In this document: piece after piece, positions 6,045 through 58,983 of the stretch
How the letters are laid out: each line of letters opens with the position of its first letter
How positions within the stretch are numbered: the first letter of the stretch is position 1
Assembly: GCA_949902595.1 (NCBI GenBank)
Contig: CATLDC010000001.1
Span: 62,001 to 126,000, forward strand
Reading direction: 5' to 3'
DNA: 64,000 bases
From: an uncultured Candidatus Melainabacteria bacterium
GTDB lineage: Bacteria; Cyanobacteriota; Vampirovibrionia; Gastranaerophilales; Gastranaerophilaceae
Notes under the pieces: generated by a model
What the model was told of the DNA's origin: nothing
Seen by the model: the letters and a program-made list of their open reading frames with translations, nothing else
Database searches by the model: none
Program-made: the position numbers and the translations under genes

Positions 6045-6222
6045 TAATCATGAGTATACTAAAAATATACGAAGTTCGCAACAGGGATTAGGTGTTATGG
6101 ACAAATTGGAATATTTATTATAAAATTATAAAACAGGGTAAAAAAATCTCTTTTCAAAAGGAAACACACCGACAAAACTAATTGAGACTTCGGGTATGTT
6201 TCCCGGCTAGAAAGGGGGTCAT

Positions 6223-6303
6223 ATGGATAAATTCAATTTAAGTTTATTTTTAATTTTTTTGATTTTATTTATATTAAAAAATGGTTCCCAGCATAAAAGC
6301 TAA
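6223..6303 (+). CDS. Small hydrophobic peptide, putative type I toxin (copy 1)
   Basis: 26 residues: MDKFNLSLFLIFLILFIL followed by a polar tail KNGSQHKS. A single membrane-spanning helix with a short hydrophilic end is the form of type I toxins such as Fst, Ldr and Ibs. An AAGGGGG ribosome site lies about 5 bases before the ATG. Three homologues in this window keep N-L-x-L, FLIL and a Lys/Arg-Asn/Ser pair while the DNA differs, which supports translation. The last codons also form the stem of the antisense RNA terminator. Confidence 0.65.
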   Translation: MDKFNLSLFLIFLILFILKNGSQHKS

Positions 6304-6357
6304 GAACCATTGAGACTTCTAAAGGGATTTTGGTAGCTTAGGAAACTACCACCCTGT
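6272..6357 (-). ncRNA. Putative antisense antitoxin RNA (copy 1)
   Basis: A minus-strand promoter (TTGACA-17-AATAAT) would start an RNA near 6357. It would form a 5' hairpin (GGTAG/CTACC, 6332-6350), carry the complement of the direct repeat, and end at a strong terminator: AATGGTTC/GAACCATT (6280-6310) followed on the minus strand by TTTTTAATAT. The ~86-nt RNA is complementary to the toxin mRNA 3' end and, through the repeat, to a site just before the toxin ribosome site. Confidence 0.55.
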
Positions 6358-6549
6358 ACATTTATTATTTACCATTTTTTCCAATATGTCAACCTGAACG
6401 CAATAAAATTCTGTTATAGCATAATTTGTAGACAAATTGGAAAACTTATTGTAAAATTGTATAACAGGGTAAAGGATGCATTTCGAAAAGGAAACCGCTA
6501 ACAACATACTTAGAACTCGGGTTGGTTTCCCGACTAGAAAGAGGTCAGT

Positions 6550-6630
6550 ATGAACGATTTCAATTTGACTTTATTTTTAATCTTTTTGATTTTAGTCATA
6601 TTAAAAAGTGGCACTAACCTGAAAAGGTAA
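6550..6630 (+). CDS. Small hydrophobic peptide, putative type I toxin (copy 2)
   Basis: 26 residues: MNDFNLTLFLIFLILVIL then KSGTNLKR. The hydrophobic core is nearly identical to copies 1 and 3 and the tail is polar and basic. An AGAGGT ribosome site precedes the ATG by about 5 bases. The tail codons double as one arm of the antisense terminator: AAGTGG at 6606-6611 pairs with CCACTT at 6634-6639. Confidence 0.65.
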   Translation: MNDFNLTLFLIFLILVILKSGTNLKR

Positions 6631-6684
6631 GCACCACTTAGAACTCTAAAGGGCATCCGGTAGCTTAGCAAACTACCACCCTGT
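6600..6684 (-). ncRNA. Putative antisense antitoxin RNA (copy 2)
   Basis: Predicted from the minus-strand promoter TTGACA-17-AATAAT. The RNA would start near 6684 at ACAGGGT, form the GGTAG/CTACC hairpin, carry the complement of ACTTAGAACTC, and end at the AAGTGG/CCACTT hairpin, which on the minus strand is followed by TTTTTAAT. Confidence 0.55.
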
Positions 6685-6880
6685 TATTTTATTATTTACT
6701 ATTTTTTCCGATTTGTCAATGTGGACAGAACAAAATTCTGTTATAGCATAATTTGCAGACAAATCAGAATATTTATTATAAAATTATATAACAGGGTAAA
6801 GGATGCTCTTTCCTAAAGGAAACTAACCGACAAACATAATGCAGACCTCGGGTTAGTCCCCGCTAGAAAGGGTGGTCGAT

Positions 6881-6970
6881 ATGAATGACTTCAATTTGAC
6901 TCTATTTTTAATCTTTTTGATTTTAAGCATATTGAAAAACGGCTCTCACCCAAAGGATAAGAACCGTTAG
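6881..6970 (+). CDS. Small hydrophobic peptide, putative type I toxin (copy 3)
   Basis: 29 residues: MNDFNLTLFLIFLILSIL then KNGSHPKDKNR. It has the same membrane core as copy 2 with a slightly longer basic tail, because the stop has moved into the downstream arm of the terminator stem. An AAGGGTGG ribosome site precedes the ATG. Confidence 0.65.
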   Translation: MNDFNLTLFLIFLILSILKNGSHPKDKNR

Positions 6971-7012
6971 ACCTCTCAGAGTATCCGGCACTTTCTCAAG
7001 GTGCCACCCTGT
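6931..7012 (-). ncRNA. Putative antisense antitoxin RNA (copy 3)
   Basis: Minus-strand promoter TTGACA-17-AATAAT. The RNA would begin near 7012, form the GGCAC/GTGCC hairpin, carry the complement of AGACCTC, and end at the AACGG/CCGTT hairpin, followed on the minus strand by TTTTTCAAT. Confidence 0.55.
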
Positions 7013-7058
7013 AACTTTATTATTTACTATTTTTTCCGATTTGTCAACTGAACCCACT

Positions 7059-7086: not shown

Positions 7087-8823
7087 CTATTGCAAGAATG
7101 AACTGTAATTCTGCTGCATTGAGGCAATCATCTGTTCCATCTTCTGGAACTTGTTCTCAAGCTGCTTCTTATACGTTTCAATACTTGTATTCTTTTTGCT
7201 TATCTTTGTTTCCATTTTCTTGATGTCAGCATCCAGAGAAGTCGTTTTAACATCAAAATACCCGACTGACGCCTTCATGCTCTGCTCAACAGCGCCTTCC
7301 ATCATATTCAAAACCCCGTTCTCGCCGGCAAGAATCGCCTTCACTGAATCAGGATTTTCTTCAAGCGCCTTGAGGAATTTTTCTTCATCAAGCTTGAGCG
7401 CGTTTGTATCAGCTGAAAGGTTGTTCGAATCAGCCGCTGCTGTTGAAATACCAATCTCAGACAACAACTTGTAAACCCCGCCGTTGGTTCCGTTTGAACC
7501 GTTTGCATAACGTCTGATTGTGTTTCTCAAACTTGTCAAAGTGCTTTCACCGTGAAGGTCAGCACCGTTGGCTGTTACCTCGTCAACCTTCGCAATCGCG
7601 TCGTTATACGCTGTAATAAATGCATTAACAGCATCCTTCAAGCCGGACGTATCCTGCGTAATCTTAAGCGTTGTGTTTCCGTCTTCTTCTGTGTTTGCCC
7701 TGTTAAGAGTCAATGTAACACCGTCAATTCTTGAAATGTCAGAAGTTACAGTGTTTGAAGTAGATGTCATTGTTGTACCGTTTACGCTGAATATTGCATT
7801 CTGACCCAACTCTTGAGCGTCAGTAAACATTTTTGAAGATACAACATTACCATCAGCGTCCCACTCGGATTCTGTAAGCCCCATTACATCAGTAAAGTTG
7901 CTTGTTCCAGCCTCAATGTTGATATAAGAAGCACCCTCTTTTGTAGACGTAATCGACAATTTGCCGGTTGCATCGTCCCAGTAAGCATAAGCCTGCGCTT
8001 CGTCATTGTTGTTAATCTGCGAAATCAATGATGAAAGAGTTGTCTTATCATCAATTGTAAATGTTGCAGCACCGATTGTGAATGTTCCGGCCTTAATCTG
8101 CTCGCTAAATCCGGAGTTCTCATCAGTTAGCTTGGAAGCAATTGTTGCCTTGTACAAAGAGTTTGTAGAAGCATACGTTCCGTCTTCCTGCCTTGCAAGC
8201 CCGATTAAAGACGAAAGGTTTGTCTTATCCGTAGTTGCACCAACATTAATCGTGTCGCCTTCGTTCTGTGCAGAGAACTTAAGCACACCCTTGTCATCTA
8301 TTTCGGTCTTCACACCAAAAGCAGCCATTTGTGACTTCAAATCGCCCAATGTGTGTTCTTTTTCAATATTTACAGTATTTTTCTTCCCGTTTACATAAAC
8401 TGTGAAAGAACCCTCGCTTACACCGAGGTTAGAAAGCTTTGTACTGTCATCAGCTACAGCACTTGCAGACTCTTTTGATTGAGCCTTTGTATAAGTCGCA
8501 ATCTGCTGAACCTTAATATCATAATTCTGTCTCAATGCAGCGTTGCCAGCTGTTGCAGTAAACACATCTGTGTTCGAAGATGTTGCAGTGTTTTTGCCGA
8601 ACAAGTCGAATGTTCCGCCAAACTTCGCGTCAGTAATCTTTTCAAGAGCGCTTCTTAATGCTGTAAATGCCGATCTTGTATCTGATAATGTTGATTTTAC
8701 TGTTTGCTTTGATTTAAGCGTGTTCTCGAGCTTTGTTACGTCTGCTTTTTTAACTGATACCAGCGCTTCCACCCATCCGGATGTGTCTAAACCTGAAGCC
8801 AAACCGCTAAATGATATTGACAT
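7087..8823 (-). CDS. fliD: Flagellar filament cap protein FliD (HAP2)
   Basis: 578 residues. The N-terminus ISFSGLASGLDTSGWVEALV is the conserved FliD start (s-GLaSGlDt-iv--L). The central part is Ser/Thr-rich and variable, as expected for the exposed cap domains, and residues ~505-578 form a coiled coil (KMETKISKKNTSIETYKKQL) ending in QQNYSSFLQ. FliD is exported through the flagellar type III apparatus and caps the growing filament. Here it is alone, without fliS or fliT next to it and far from the fliF-I operon. Upstream 8824-8974 shows only A/T-rich -10-like sequences; no convincing sigma-28 promoter was found there. Confidence 0.95.
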   Translation of the reverse strand: MSISFSGLASGLDTSGWVEALVSVKKADVTKLENTLKSKQTVKSTLSDTRSAFTALRSALEKITDAKFGGTFDLFGKNTATSSNTDVFTATAGNAALRQNYDIKVQQIATYTKAQSKESASAVADDSTKLSNLGVSEGSFTVYVNGKKNTVNIEKEHTLGDLKSQMAAFGVKTEIDDKGVLKFSAQNEGDTINVGATTDKTNLSSLIGLARQEDGTYASTNSLYKATIASKLTDENSGFSEQIKAGTFTIGAATFTIDDKTTLSSLISQINNNDEAQAYAYWDDATGKLSITSTKEGASYINIEAGTSNFTDVMGLTESEWDADGNVVSSKMFTDAQELGQNAIFSVNGTTMTSTSNTVTSDISRIDGVTLTLNRANTEEDGNTTLKITQDTSGLKDAVNAFITAYNDAIAKVDEVTANGADLHGESTLTSLRNTIRRYANGSNGTNGGVYKLLSEIGISTAAADSNNLSADTNALKLDEEKFLKALEENPDSVKAILAGENGVLNMMEGAVEQSMKASVGYFDVKTTSLDADIKKMETKISKKNTSIETYKKQLENKFQKMEQMIASMQQNYSSFLQ

Positions 8824-44841: not shown

Positions 44842-45753
44842 TTATTCCTCCTCCCCCAGATAAATATTATCAATAAGTCTGACCCCTTCAACACGGCACG
44901 CAATAAGGGCGATTGTGTCCTTGTCCGCCTTTTCTTTTTCTTCGAGCGTGTTTTTATCAAGGATTTCTAAGTATTCCAAATCGTACTTATCAGTAAGATA
45001 CGCATAGGCTGTTTCTTTTAAAGCAGAAACATCGTTAATGCCGCGCTTAAAGCAGGCTTTAATGTTGTTCAGAATCCTGCTCAAGACAAGCGCGTCCTGT
45101 TTGCCTTGTTCTGTAAGGTATTTGTTTCTGGAGCTAAGCGCGAGTCCTGAATCTTCTCTCACAATCGGACATTGGATAATCTTTATCGGCACATTCAGGT
45201 CATGCACCATTTTTTTAATAACAATAACCTGTTGCGCGTCTTTTTGACCGAAGAACCCGAAATCAGGCTGGACAATATTAAAGAGTTTGAGCACAACCGT
45301 GCAAACCCCGTCAAAGTGTCCGACCCGTGATTTCCCGCAAAGTTTATTAACGTAGAAAAACGGAGGGCAGACGTAGGTTAGGGTGTCGTTGGAGAGTCTG
45401 TTGCCTTCCTCATACGCGTCAGGTTTGGACTCATTACTTCCGGCTGATTCACATTTACCCCCGTACATTTCTGATGGACTTGGCGCGAAAACAACATCCA
45501 CTCCTGCTGATTTGCAGAGTTCCACATCTTTTTCGAGCGTTCTCGGGTATTTATCAAAGTCTTCTGATGGCCCGAACTGAATCGGGTTTACAAACACAGA
45601 TACGACCACTTTGTCACAGGTAGCCTTTGCTTTTTTGATAAGGCTCAGGTGGCCTTCGTGGAGTGCGCCCATTGTCGGCACAATCCCGACTGTCAAGTTG
45701 CCGTCCCAGCTTTTTCTCAGCTCTCTTAATTCCTTAATTGTATGTACTAACAT
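44842..45753 (-). CDS. panC: Pantothenate synthetase
   Basis: 303 residues. GIVPTMGALHEGHLSLIKKA is the HIGH-type ATP site; VSVFVNPIQFGPSEDFDKYPR, FGQKDAQQ and DSGLALSSRNKYL follow. It joins pantoate and beta-alanine. A low-complexity stretch (GGKCESAGSNESKPDAYEEG) in the middle is an unusual insertion of about 30 residues. Confidence 0.96.
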   Translation of the reverse strand: MLVHTIKELRELRKSWDGNLTVGIVPTMGALHEGHLSLIKKAKATCDKVVVSVFVNPIQFGPSEDFDKYPRTLEKDVELCKSAGVDVVFAPSPSEMYGGKCESAGSNESKPDAYEEGNRLSNDTLTYVCPPFFYVNKLCGKSRVGHFDGVCTVVLKLFNIVQPDFGFFGQKDAQQVIVIKKMVHDLNVPIKIIQCPIVREDSGLALSSRNKYLTEQGKQDALVLSRILNNIKACFKRGINDVSALKETAYAYLTDKYDLEYLEILDKNTLEEKEKADKDTIALIACRVEGVRLIDNIYLGEEE

Positions 45754-45970
45754 AACATTCCCTCAAAAATCATTGTTCGGGTTTAGCATAGCCCACATTT
45801 ATTATACCACATGATAAAATTTTGATTATATTTTTAAAGCAAAAATAGACAAATTGGAAAACTTATTGTAAAATTGTATTACAGGGTAAAGGATACTCTT
45901 TTTCCAAGAAACATCGGCACAACAGACACACTTCGATTTCGGTCGATAGTTCCGAGGAAAGGAGGCTATT

Positions 45971-46051
45971 ATGGAAAATCTCAATTTAACTCTAATAATG
46001 GTTTTCTTGATTTTATTCATAATAAGAAATAGCACCTACCCGAAAGGATAA
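45971..46051 (+). CDS. Small hydrophobic peptide, putative type I toxin (copy 4)
   Basis: 26 residues: MENLNLTLIMVFLILFII then RNSTYPKG. The most divergent of the four, yet the same length, same N-L-T-L start, FLIL core and polar-basic tail. AAAGGAGG lies 7 bases before the ATG, the best ribosome site of the set. Confidence 0.65.
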   Translation: MENLNLTLIMVFLILFIIRNSTYPKG

Positions 46052-46105
46052 GCGCTACTTCGATTTCTATAGAGTATCCGGCACTTTCTCAAGGTGCCAC
46101 CCTGT
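46022..46105 (-). ncRNA. Putative antisense antitoxin RNA (copy 4)
   Basis: Minus promoter TTGACA-17-AATAAT; start near 46105; GGCAC/GTGCC hairpin; complement of ACTTCGATTTC; terminator-like TAGCGC…GTGCTA stem followed by TTTCTTATT, weaker than in the other copies. Confidence 0.5.
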
Positions 46106-46145
46106 AACTTTATTATTTACTATAAACCCCTGTTTGTCAAGCTTC

Positions 46146-46970
46146 CTACCCCAACCTTGCCTTCTCGCGCTCGTCTAGCTCAAAGGATTCCTTTTGTGAC
46201 GGAAAAATCTCTTCCTTTACCTCACGTTTGTAAGCGCAAACCCCCCCCAACACAACATCATGCAGATTTGCGTATTTTTTCACAAACTTCGGCGTGAAAT
46301 CAGTGAACTTGCCCAGAATATCGTCTGTCACAACAATCTGACCGGAGCAATCTTTGCCCGCACCGATTCCGATTGTCGGAATATTCAAGTTCTCGGTTAT
46401 ATACTTCGCGCTCTCTGCCGGCATAAGTTCAAGCACAACCGCAAAGCACCCTGCCTGTTCGAGTTTTTTTGCGCACTCCAGAATCTGTTCAATCTTATCT
46501 GCGCTTTTGCCCTGAATCCTGTACCCGCCAATAGTATTCATAAGCTGCGGTGTAAACCCGAGGTGTCCGAGAACAGGGATTCCTGACTCGACTGCGCGTC
46601 TTACAAGGTTCAGAATATGTTCGTTGCAGCCTTCTAGTTTTACAGCAGAAGCGCCTGCTTTAATCATCTTTGAAGCGTTTTCAAGCCCTTGTTCAACGCT
46701 CAGATTGTAGCTCATAAACGGCATGTCGCCCACAATAAACGAGTTTTTCGCACCTCTTGAAACAGCTTTTACAAAAACAAGCATTTCGTCGATTGTTATA
46801 TTGTAAGTGTTCTCGTATCCAAGAGCCACCATCGCAAGAGAATCCCCCACAAGGATTCCGTCGATTTCAGCCTTATCAAGAACCTGTGCGGTCGAATAAT
46901 CGTAAGCTGTAAGCATTGCTATTTTTTCGTTGTTGTCTTTCAATCTCTGAAATGTGTTGACTGTTTTCAT
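46146..46970 (-). CDS. panB: Ketopantoate hydroxymethyltransferase
   Basis: 274 residues. MLTAYDYSTAQVLDKAEIDG, LVGDSLAMV, VGDMPFMSYN, AVKLEGC, GHLGFTPQ and IGIGAGKDCSGQIVV are all family blocks. It makes ketopantoate from ketoisovalerate. Its ATG overlaps the stop of the preceding CofD-like gene (TAATG). Confidence 0.96.
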   Translation of the reverse strand: MKTVNTFQRLKDNNEKIAMLTAYDYSTAQVLDKAEIDGILVGDSLAMVALGYENTYNITIDEMLVFVKAVSRGAKNSFIVGDMPFMSYNLSVEQGLENASKMIKAGASAVKLEGCNEHILNLVRRAVESGIPVLGHLGFTPQLMNTIGGYRIQGKSADKIEQILECAKKLEQAGCFAVVLELMPAESAKYITENLNIPTIGIGAGKDCSGQIVVTDDILGKFTDFTPKFVKKYANLHDVVLGGVCAYKREVKEEIFPSQKESFELDEREKARLG

Positions 46971-49192: not shown

Positions 49193-49308
49193 TATAGGGG
49201 CAAGCCCCGAGCAAGTACTTTTACTTGAGGCTTGACTTAGTACCCTATAAACAAAGTAGAATAATTTGTAAAATCGCTATCATTACCGTGATAGTGATTT
49301 TTATTTTT
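49193..49308 (+). ncRNA. Stand-alone structured small RNA candidate
   Basis: Three nested stems form one long hairpin: TATAGGG/CCCTATA (49193-49199 with 49243-49249), CAAGCC/GGCTTG (49201-49206 with 49229-49234) and CAAGTA/TACTTG (49212-49217 with 49222-49227), loop CTTT. A linker and strong terminator follow. No open reading frame. It lacks the signal-recognition RNA or tmRNA motifs. A competing GGGG-CAAG-CCCC hairpin is possible. Function unknown. Confidence 0.6.
49273..49308. terminator. Terminator of the small RNA; also faces fliI remnant
   Basis: ATCGCTATCA, loop TTACCG, TGATAGTGAT then TTTTATTTTT on the plus strand. On the minus strand the same stem is followed by TTTTACAAATT, so it could originally have ended the fliI operon. 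Confidence 0.85.
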
Positions 49309-49389
49309 ACATTTACCCGCCTCCGGCAAGCTGGTTCAGCTGCAACAGCGCACTTATTGTCTGGTCGTAGTCAAACTTGTCATCAGTTT
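49304..49389 (-). pseudogene. Duplicated 3' end of fliI
   Basis: About 85 bp nearly identical to the real fliI end at 50794-50880, including the last ~24 codons (…LLQLNQLAGGG) with its own stop TAA and the flanking TTTTTACATTTACCC. Only a few substitutions and a 4-base gap separate the copies. The lipase stop codon lies inside it. The pair of repeats brackets the lipase/membrane-protein cassette. Confidence 0.85.
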
Positions 49390-50721: not shown

Positions 50722-50805
50722 TTTTGTTTCCGAGTGAATATGGTTTTATTATACGCAATTCTTAAAACCACATAAGAATTGTAACAAATTTTTTACATTT
50801 ACCCT

Positions 50806-52131
50806 CTACCCGCCTCCGGCAAGCTGGTTCAGCTGCAACAGCGCACTTATCGTCTGGTCGTAGTCAAACTTGTCGTCAGTTGACTGGCATAAAAACGTGT
50901 TAATATCTCCCATCATTGCAATCGCCTTGTCACAAGCAGGGTCAGAGCCCTTCACATAAGCCCCGATGTTAATCAAATCCTCATTCTTCTTATGAACAGC
51001 AAGCAGGTTTCGCAAAACTCCCGCTGCGTTGCGGTGCTCTTTGGATGTCACATCACCCATAACACGGCTGAGCGATTGAAGCACATCCACAGCAGGATAG
51101 TGGTTCTTGTGCGCCAAATCACGTGAAAGCACAATGTGACCATCTAAGATACTTCTTGCCGTGTCGGAAATCGGCTCGTTGAAGTCATCGCCCTCAACAA
51201 GTACCGTGTAAAGCCCCGTAATCGTCCCGTTTTCGTTTGTTCCGGCTCTTTCCATCAGCTTTGGCATAAGCGCAAACACAGAAGGCGTATACCCTCTGGT
51301 TGCAGGAGGCTCGCCAATCGCAAGCCCGACTTCTCTTTGTGCCATCGCAATACGGGTAACACTGTCCAGCATGAACAGAACATCCATTCCCTTGTCTCTA
51401 AAATACTCGGCAATTGAAGTCGCAACAAACGCAGCCTTAATCTTAACCAGAGAAGGCTGTTCAGAAGTCGCTGCGATTACGATTGAGCGCTTCATGCCTT
51501 CAGGCCCCAAGATTTCTTCAATAAATTCCTTAACCTCACGTCCGCGTTCGCCAATCAGCGCAATAACGTTCAAATCCGCGGTCGTGTTTTTTGCCATCAT
51601 ACCGATTGTCGTACTCTTACCAACACCAGAGCCCGCGAAAATCCCCATTCTCTGGCCTTTTCCCACGGTCATAAACCCGTCGATTGACCTTATGCCAAGT
51701 GAAAGCGGCTCCGAGATTCGTTTACGCTTAAGCGGGTTAATCGCGTCAGCCTTTGTTGAGCGGTATTCTGAAAATCTGATATCTCCAAGAGTGTCAATCG
51801 GGTTTCCGAGCCCGTCAAGCACGCGCCCGATAAGCTGGGTGCCAACCCCGATTCTCATTGCCCCGCCTGTATTCACAACAAGTGCGCCCGGGCGAATTCC
51901 ATCAGGAGAAGCCAATGGCATTAAAAGGATTTTGTCGCTCTTAAACCCCACGACCTCCGCCATTGTCGGAGTGTCGTTATAGTCGTTGTAGATGTAGCAC
52001 AAATCTCCGATTGAAGATTTCGGGCCGTCTGATTCAATCGTAAGCCCGATAATCTCGGTGATTTTTCCGATTTCCTTAATAGTCTGTGTGCTATTAATTA
52101 TGTCTAAATACTTATTCTTGTCCCAGCTCAT
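50806..52131 (-). CDS. fliI: Flagellar type III export ATPase FliI
   Basis: 441 residues. Walker A GIFAGSGVGKSTTIGMM (~165-180), IGERGREVKEFIE, VLFMLDSVTRIAMAQREVGL and LVEGDDFNEPISDTARSILDG are the F1-like ATPase motifs of FliI. It drives export of flagellar parts through the basal body. Last gene of the fliF-G-H-I unit, overlapping fliH by 20 bases. Confidence 0.97.
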   Translation of the reverse strand: MSWDKNKYLDIINSTQTIKEIGKITEIIGLTIESDGPKSSIGDLCYIYNDYNDTPTMAEVVGFKSDKILLMPLASPDGIRPGALVVNTGGAMRIGVGTQLIGRVLDGLGNPIDTLGDIRFSEYRSTKADAINPLKRKRISEPLSLGIRSIDGFMTVGKGQRMGIFAGSGVGKSTTIGMMAKNTTADLNVIALIGERGREVKEFIEEILGPEGMKRSIVIAATSEQPSLVKIKAAFVATSIAEYFRDKGMDVLFMLDSVTRIAMAQREVGLAIGEPPATRGYTPSVFALMPKLMERAGTNENGTITGLYTVLVEGDDFNEPISDTARSILDGHIVLSRDLAHKNHYPAVDVLQSLSRVMGDVTSKEHRNAAGVLRNLLAVHKKNEDLINIGAYVKGSDPACDKAIAMMGDINTFLCQSTDDKFDYDQTISALLQLNQLAGGG

Positions 52132-53929: not shown

Positions 53930-54023
53930 ATTAGTAGTTTTACCATTGAGGGAGACCCGTAGTCTTGCTTCTCACCTGTAGTGCCTCGATTGTCTCCCGA
54001 CCAATCTTCTACGTGCGTAGCAC
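53930..54023 (-). repeat. Structured dispersed element C (copy 1), between fliF and fliG
   Basis: Homologous to 58888-58983 over ~95 bp. Starts with a GTGC-TAC-GCAC hairpin, then a 7-bp stem GGGAGAC/GTCTCCC (complements of 53992-53998 and 53950-53956 read on the minus strand). In the other copy this stem is GGCAGAC/GTCTGCC, a compensatory C-G for G-C change. It would be inside the flagellar mRNA. Confidence 0.65.
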
Positions 54024-58887: not shown

Positions 58888-58983
58888 GTGCTACGCACGT
58901 AAACATATTGTCGGCAGACAATCGTGGTAATACTGGTTGGGATAGGGACTACAGGTCTGCCTCAATTGTGGAACGACTAGCTG
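58888..58983 (+). repeat. Structured dispersed element C (copy 2)
   Basis: GTGCTACGCAC at 58888-58898, then GGCAGAC 58913-58919 pairing with GTCTGCC 58955-58961. An alternative hairpin ATTGTC-GGCA-GACAAT shares bases with it, so two folds exclude each other. Inverse orientation relative to the copy at 53930-54023. Confidence 0.65.

Follow-up and report, generated by a model that had tools for sequence, protein, structure and literature searches.

Long-distance pairing between the 5' and 3' ends keeps the full-length toxin mRNA inert in hok/sok and AapA/IsoA, and the small toxins of Ldr and Ibs/Sib of E. coli occur, with their antisense RNAs, in tandem and dispersed copies. The par/Fst system (RNA I/RNA II of pAD1; Fst/Ldr family) has convergent promoters and a short membrane peptide; its direct repeats DRa and DRb, which vary between loci, give complementarity between mRNA and antisense RNA near the translation start, and the mRNA 5' end and Shine-Dalgarno (SD) sequence lie in an intramolecular structure (PMC7472228). 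Type I systems described before the 2025 Microcystis paper came from Proteobacteria, Firmicutes and Tenericutes only (PMC12390103). That paper presents msoT1/msoA1 of Microcystis aeruginosa as a candidate type I system in a cyanobacterium, and for six of its candidates the antitoxin overlaps the coding sequence and 3'UTR; its text names neither Melainabacteria nor Gastranaerophilales, nor does it speak of convergent promoters. Within the library searched, no literature was found that names Melainabacteria and type I toxins together, and none naming Gastranaerophilales and toxin-antitoxin was, by title, about cassettes of the kind described below.

Herein, we analysed a unit of about 300 bases that recurs in the window, by which we mean the whole 64,000-nucleotide stretch of DNA under study. 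A repeat search found three tandem copies at 6.1-7.05 kb, with a spacing of 327-331, and one more at 45.85-46.14 kb, between panC and panB. An earlier note on this DNA had described the latter as a diverged fourth copy whose peptide keeps its length and pattern. Both statements were borne out: the repeat search and blastn identified window 45846-46140 as a diverged copy of the unit with 68-74% identity to the array copies, and its peptide is MENLNLTLIMVFLILFIIRNSTYPKG, compared with MNDFNLTLFLIFLILVILKSGTNLKR and others. The profile HMM match spans 45843-46144 (E=5e-56); since this copy was among the seeds of the profile, blastn serves as the independent evidence. When the 311-nt unit was compared with its own genome by blastn, the array copies were recovered at E=7e-39 to 5e-18 and a further full copy was found on contig C8 (E=5.5e-44), which gives five full copies in the genome: three in the array, the panC-panB copy and the C8 copy. 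The array lies beside a FliD-like flagellar hook-associated gene (window 7087-8823). A sister species, G062, carries a single copy (G062:C2:8811-9085; L012, L063) whose left flank is that of the window array and whose peptide is like that of array copy 2; given this one copy at the array flank, the array seems to have gained or lost copies. Other repeats were also seen in the window, namely a 92-nt inverted repeat (53932-54023 and 58888-58979; 74% complementary, 4.9 kb apart) and a 91-nt direct repeat (49298-49388 and 50791-50881; 90% identical) that adjoins the ends of two minus-strand ORFs.

The features of the panC-panB copy, its sister copies and its neighbours are collected in the table. 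A strict rule parsed 50 of the 81 profile matches, the remainder including frame-broken, truncated or diverged copies; the statistics cover parsed units only and therefore lean towards intact ones, and in some copies the peptide frame is broken or was not parsed. The order in parsed units is P1, [A/G]CAGGGT at the predicted mRNA start, a leader with a direct repeat, the SD and the peptide, followed by a stop-codon hairpin, the second repeat, the complement of the mRNA start, a hairpin, ACCCTGT and, on the other strand, P2. The two promoter-like sites, recognized by consensus match only, face inward at the unit ends, and P2 is nearer to the consensus than P1. The peptide is mostly 26 aa long, with the consensus MxxFNLxLxLIFLILxIxK in parsed units, and is under purifying selection as judged by dN/dS among 40 distinct units. 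Folding predicts an mRNA whose 5' and 3' ends are paired (z=-4.8), and the complementarity of the two ends co-varies between units, the leftover mismatches being mostly of the G-U type. Across 27 units, the mean unpaired probability was 0.07 for the start codon, 0.23 for the SD and 0.69 for the leader repeat, compared with 0.37 for the whole mRNA. In the predicted antisense RNA fold, 14 of 26 pairs show a compensatory change.

Table. Features of the unit between panC and panB, of related copies and of flanking genes (window positions unless a locus is named)
Feature	Position	Strand	Sequence or evidence
Array copy 1	6092..6399	+	peptide MDKFNLSLFLIFLILFILKNGSQHKS; repeat search, profile HMM
Array copy 2	6421..6722	+	peptide MNDFNLTLFLIFLILVILKSGTNLKR; repeat search, profile HMM
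Array copy 3	6748..7051	+	peptide MNDFNLTLFLIFLILSILKNGSHPKDKNR; repeat search, profile HMM
panC	44842-45753	-	Pfam Pantoate_ligase, E=1e-103
P1, promoter-like, peptide mRNA (TAGACA-17-TAAAAT)	45846..45874	+	10/12 consensus matches; similar site there in many other units
Predicted mRNA 5' end ACAGGGTaaaGGATACTCT, complementary to mRNA 3' end	45881..45899	+	0/10,000 permutations; folding
Leader direct repeat DRa ACTTCGATTTC, predicted exposed in leader loop	45930..45940	+	permutation tests, folding
Shine-Dalgarno AGGAGG, predicted paired	45960..45965	+	sequence, folding
26-aa hydrophobic peptide MENLNLTLIMVFLILFIIRNSTYPKG	45971..46051	+	dN/dS about 0.34
Predicted ~90-nt antisense RNA, two hairpins and linker	46018..46106	-	covariation; predicted fold z=-4.2
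Terminator-like hairpin of antisense RNA, over peptide gene end	46026..46061	-	compensatory changes, folding
3'UTR direct repeat DRb ACTTCGATTTC	46057..46067	+	complement partly in linker between antisense RNA hairpins
mRNA 3' end: AGAGTATCC, hairpin GGCACTTTCTCAAGGTGCC, ACCCTGT; predicted to close on 5' end	46071..46105	+	permutation test, folding
P2, promoter-like, antisense RNA (TTGACA-17-AATAAT)	46112..46140	-	11/12 consensus matches; scar of P2 kept in G062
panB	46146-46970	-	Pfam Pantoate_transf, E=1e-105
Second unit type, own genome	L058 741-1090, L059, L060 (C10, C14, C1:201.7k)		
Second unit type, further loci	L029, L054, L056, L067-L071		

The unit thus resembles par/Fst (PMC7472228) in its convergent promoter-like sites and short membrane peptide, in repeats that differ between loci and provide complementarity near the translation start, and in the predicted intramolecular pairing of the mRNA 5' end and SD. 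It differs from par/Fst in several respects. The peptide has no Fst-family match in Pfam or NCBIfam, where searches with both peptide types (the second is described below) returned only unrelated chance matches at E<=10, and the PXXXG motif was absent by eye. The shared bidirectional terminator was not seen: a terminator-like site lies on the antisense strand only, over the gene end, and no clear mRNA terminator was found in the unit. Moreover, the predicted antisense RNA of ~90 nt is about twice as long as the ~40 nt of par/Fst and, unlike it, seems to be contained entirely within the mRNA 3' region, and the host belongs to Gastranaerophilales rather than Firmicutes. Given that both the shared terminator and the Fst peptide are missing, we describe the unit as par-like in its working and do not file it as a member of par/Fst. 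The predicted 5'-3' pairing is like that of hok/sok and AapA/IsoA and the copied direct repeat is par-like, the comparison being made via Pfam, NCBIfam and Rfam only. The tandem and dispersed copies recall Ldr and Ibs/Sib; however, the unit gave nothing credible in Rfam at the gathering threshold or at E<=10. Six of the Microcystis candidates (PMC12390103) are similar in the overlap of antitoxin with coding sequence and 3'UTR, but the predicted toxins of that study are larger (39-81 aa, with two predicted membrane helices in MsoT1), a comparison made by description only.

The 10-11-nt repeat in the leader and 3'UTR varies between copies, and both repeats of one copy change together. With free alignment, co-variation within units was not matched in any of 10,000 permutations (z=15.6); this test preceded both anchoring rules and is independent of either. 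The first rule, which took the last TC for the 3'UTR repeat, fell in the wrong place in many units and gave 4.4 versus 2.9 of 8 positions. The fixed-anchor rule, the first TC after a fixed point, was chosen after that outcome had been seen and gave 6.1 versus 3.6 of 8 (z=11.1; 0/20,000 permutations). The permutations hold no model of shared ancestry, and the z-values for the repeats and the complementarity therefore overstate independence. The stronger point is that the varying repeats (26 distinct leader 8-mers) are matched within units, whereas slid controls reached 0.9-2.4 of 8; 30 of 69 close pairs of units met the strict criterion, and these controls and the close-pair comparison address the kinship of units only in part. 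In predicted duplex energy, the leader paired with its own antisense RNA at -25.5 kcal/mol on average, compared with -19.0 for others; among 36 units from all genomes, only 6 had their own antisense RNA as the strongest partner of the leader. Within the genome, the leaders of the panC-panB copy and of array copy 2 clearly paired best with their own partner; for array copies 1 and 3 a rival came within about 1 kcal/mol, and the C8 leader, whose repeat resembles that of array copy 2, had a rival stronger than its own partner. Orthogonality between copies is thus predicted to be partial.

The C8 copy is situated downstream of genes resembling those for a major head protein, tail proteins and an amidase, and in another genome (G063:C34) several copies lie near a terminase large subunit gene and the tail-associated gene of C8. 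Both contexts are prophages or prophage remnants, and prophages are one vehicle for the unit; no phage gene adjoins the panB-panC copy. Two exact DNA patterns found no match in viral contigs, and blastn found none in annotated phages and plasmids; the patterns and thresholds were strict, so these absences are weak evidence. Short matches at the 3' end revealed another type of unit, which shares these ends but encodes a different peptide of 22-26 aa (MI(D/E)KIIMLLLA and similar; MIEKIIMLLLAIAIVAIAF...); the genome of the window holds one fuller and two 5'-truncated copies of this second type. At the level of the genus, blastn detected the unit in 29 of 65 genomes, and at that of the family in 31 of 60, the weakest matches being short. 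A covariance model of the antisense region matched 74 of 192 genomes of the order (26 of 45 genera), all but one in the same family; the lone outsider (G132) has matched repeats and a related peptide frame, and one contig (G194:C28) carries five matches. In a phylum-wide draw, 56 of 292 genomes matched, all in the same family. Most of the 51 named contigs with a DNA-pattern match are labelled Candidatus Gastranaerophilales and others have generic names; two, named Brachyspira and Acinetobacter, were taken for mislabelled metagenome bins. The unit is patchy and multi-copy across one family of gut Gastranaerophilales relatives.

Considering these features, we think it probable that the unit represents a previously undescribed family of type I toxin-antitoxin modules that work in the manner of par/Fst. 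P1 would drive an mRNA for the 26-aa membrane peptide; the 5' and 3' ends of this mRNA would pair with each other, and its fold would hide the ribosome site and the start codon, so that the full-length mRNA would be inert. From the other end, P2 would drive the ~90-nt antisense RNA, terminated over the peptide gene end and fully complementary to the mRNA 3' region. Through the copied repeat, this RNA could bind the leader loop as well, immediately 5' of the ribosome site, and would so block translation; since most copies have a repeat sequence of their own, interference between paralogous copies would be reduced. Excess peptide would probably damage the membrane. Copies would spread with prophages and by recombination and be lost by deletion. 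The architecture, the selection on the peptide and the paired covariation are read directly from the sequence; transcription, pairing in the cell and toxicity we infer. An unlikely alternative is a non-toxic small membrane protein under antisense control, such as a peptide that acts in stress or modulates the membrane and whose copies have diversified in the service of regulation. The architecture indicates antisense control and not toxicity, the purifying selection on the peptide is of an ordinary kind, and the Pfam and NCBIfam searches gave no toxin family. However, multiple copies, patchy occurrence, carriage on prophages and decay would be more usual for toxin-antitoxin modules, and the predicted double silencing, by a hidden start and by antisense RNA, fits a harmful product.

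The history of the panB-panC copy was read from 30 panB loci of the genus. Among these, the full unit lies beside panB in this genome only, and the unit profile matched none of the other loci. Where panC was found downstream, the gap was mostly -7 to 44 nt, with 84, 110, 273 and 673 nt in four genomes; it is 392 nt here. In G062, whose PanB is 99% identical, 337 bp are missing and the gap of 49 nt keeps the last ~29 nt of the unit, the P2 end, joined to the panC leader. Given this scar, the common ancestor of the two species probably had the unit, most of which was then lost from G062. Most simply, the unit inserted before the two species diverged, and a deletion through a short shared sequence followed in G062; alternatively, the scar may have arrived through recombination. 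The P2 retained in G062 (TTGACA-17-AATAAT; L064) now immediately precedes panC and could drive its transcription. In the window, a promoter-like TTGTCT-16-TATAAT (45811-45852, minus strand) lies between the unit and panC and might serve panC now, panB being 392 nt away.

The earlier note had called the unit mobile or ancient, and the patchy spread in one family, the relatives without the unit at panB-panC and the G062 scar support it both ways. Far from always lying between these two genes and nowhere else, the unit has other copies, and relatives' loci are without it. Mobility is thus supported by comparison of genomes, but the further suggestion that the unit jumps as a whole is unproven: no target-site duplication was detected at the units (own 3.76 versus 3.73 in permutations), nor did the loci examined show a transposase. 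The distribution and the scar are likewise legible in the DNA itself, and the manner of insertion is one that we infer. The same absence of target-site duplication bears on a MITE-like element whose terminal inverted repeats read as promoters by chance and whose peptide is incidental. The unit ends are alike in inverted orientation (GACAAA..., ACAGGGT), copies are both dispersed and tandem, and relatives have no unit between panB and panC; nevertheless, a MITE has no coding function of its own, whereas this peptide is under selection, and the interior leader and 3'UTR repeats co-vary, which makes this reading highly improbable. Least probable is a cis-acting regulatory or attenuator element of neighbouring genes, e.g. 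panC, toward which P2 reads and whose promoter the G062 scar could be, since the unit adjoins unrelated genes, and does so also within prophage-like regions and tandem arrays.

Beyond the type I module that we favour for the single unit, the copies may together form a large lineage-restricted Gastranaerophilales family of at least two peptide types with the same ends, in which the 10-11-nt repeat would be an evolving address code that helps to separate the many paralogues of one cell; to this broader proposal we give slightly less than even weight. The panB-panC scar indicates that a promoter-like remnant of such a cassette can stay behind in a core operon, and the dozens of natural paralogues with matched repeats offer a data set for the evolution of antisense specificity after duplication.
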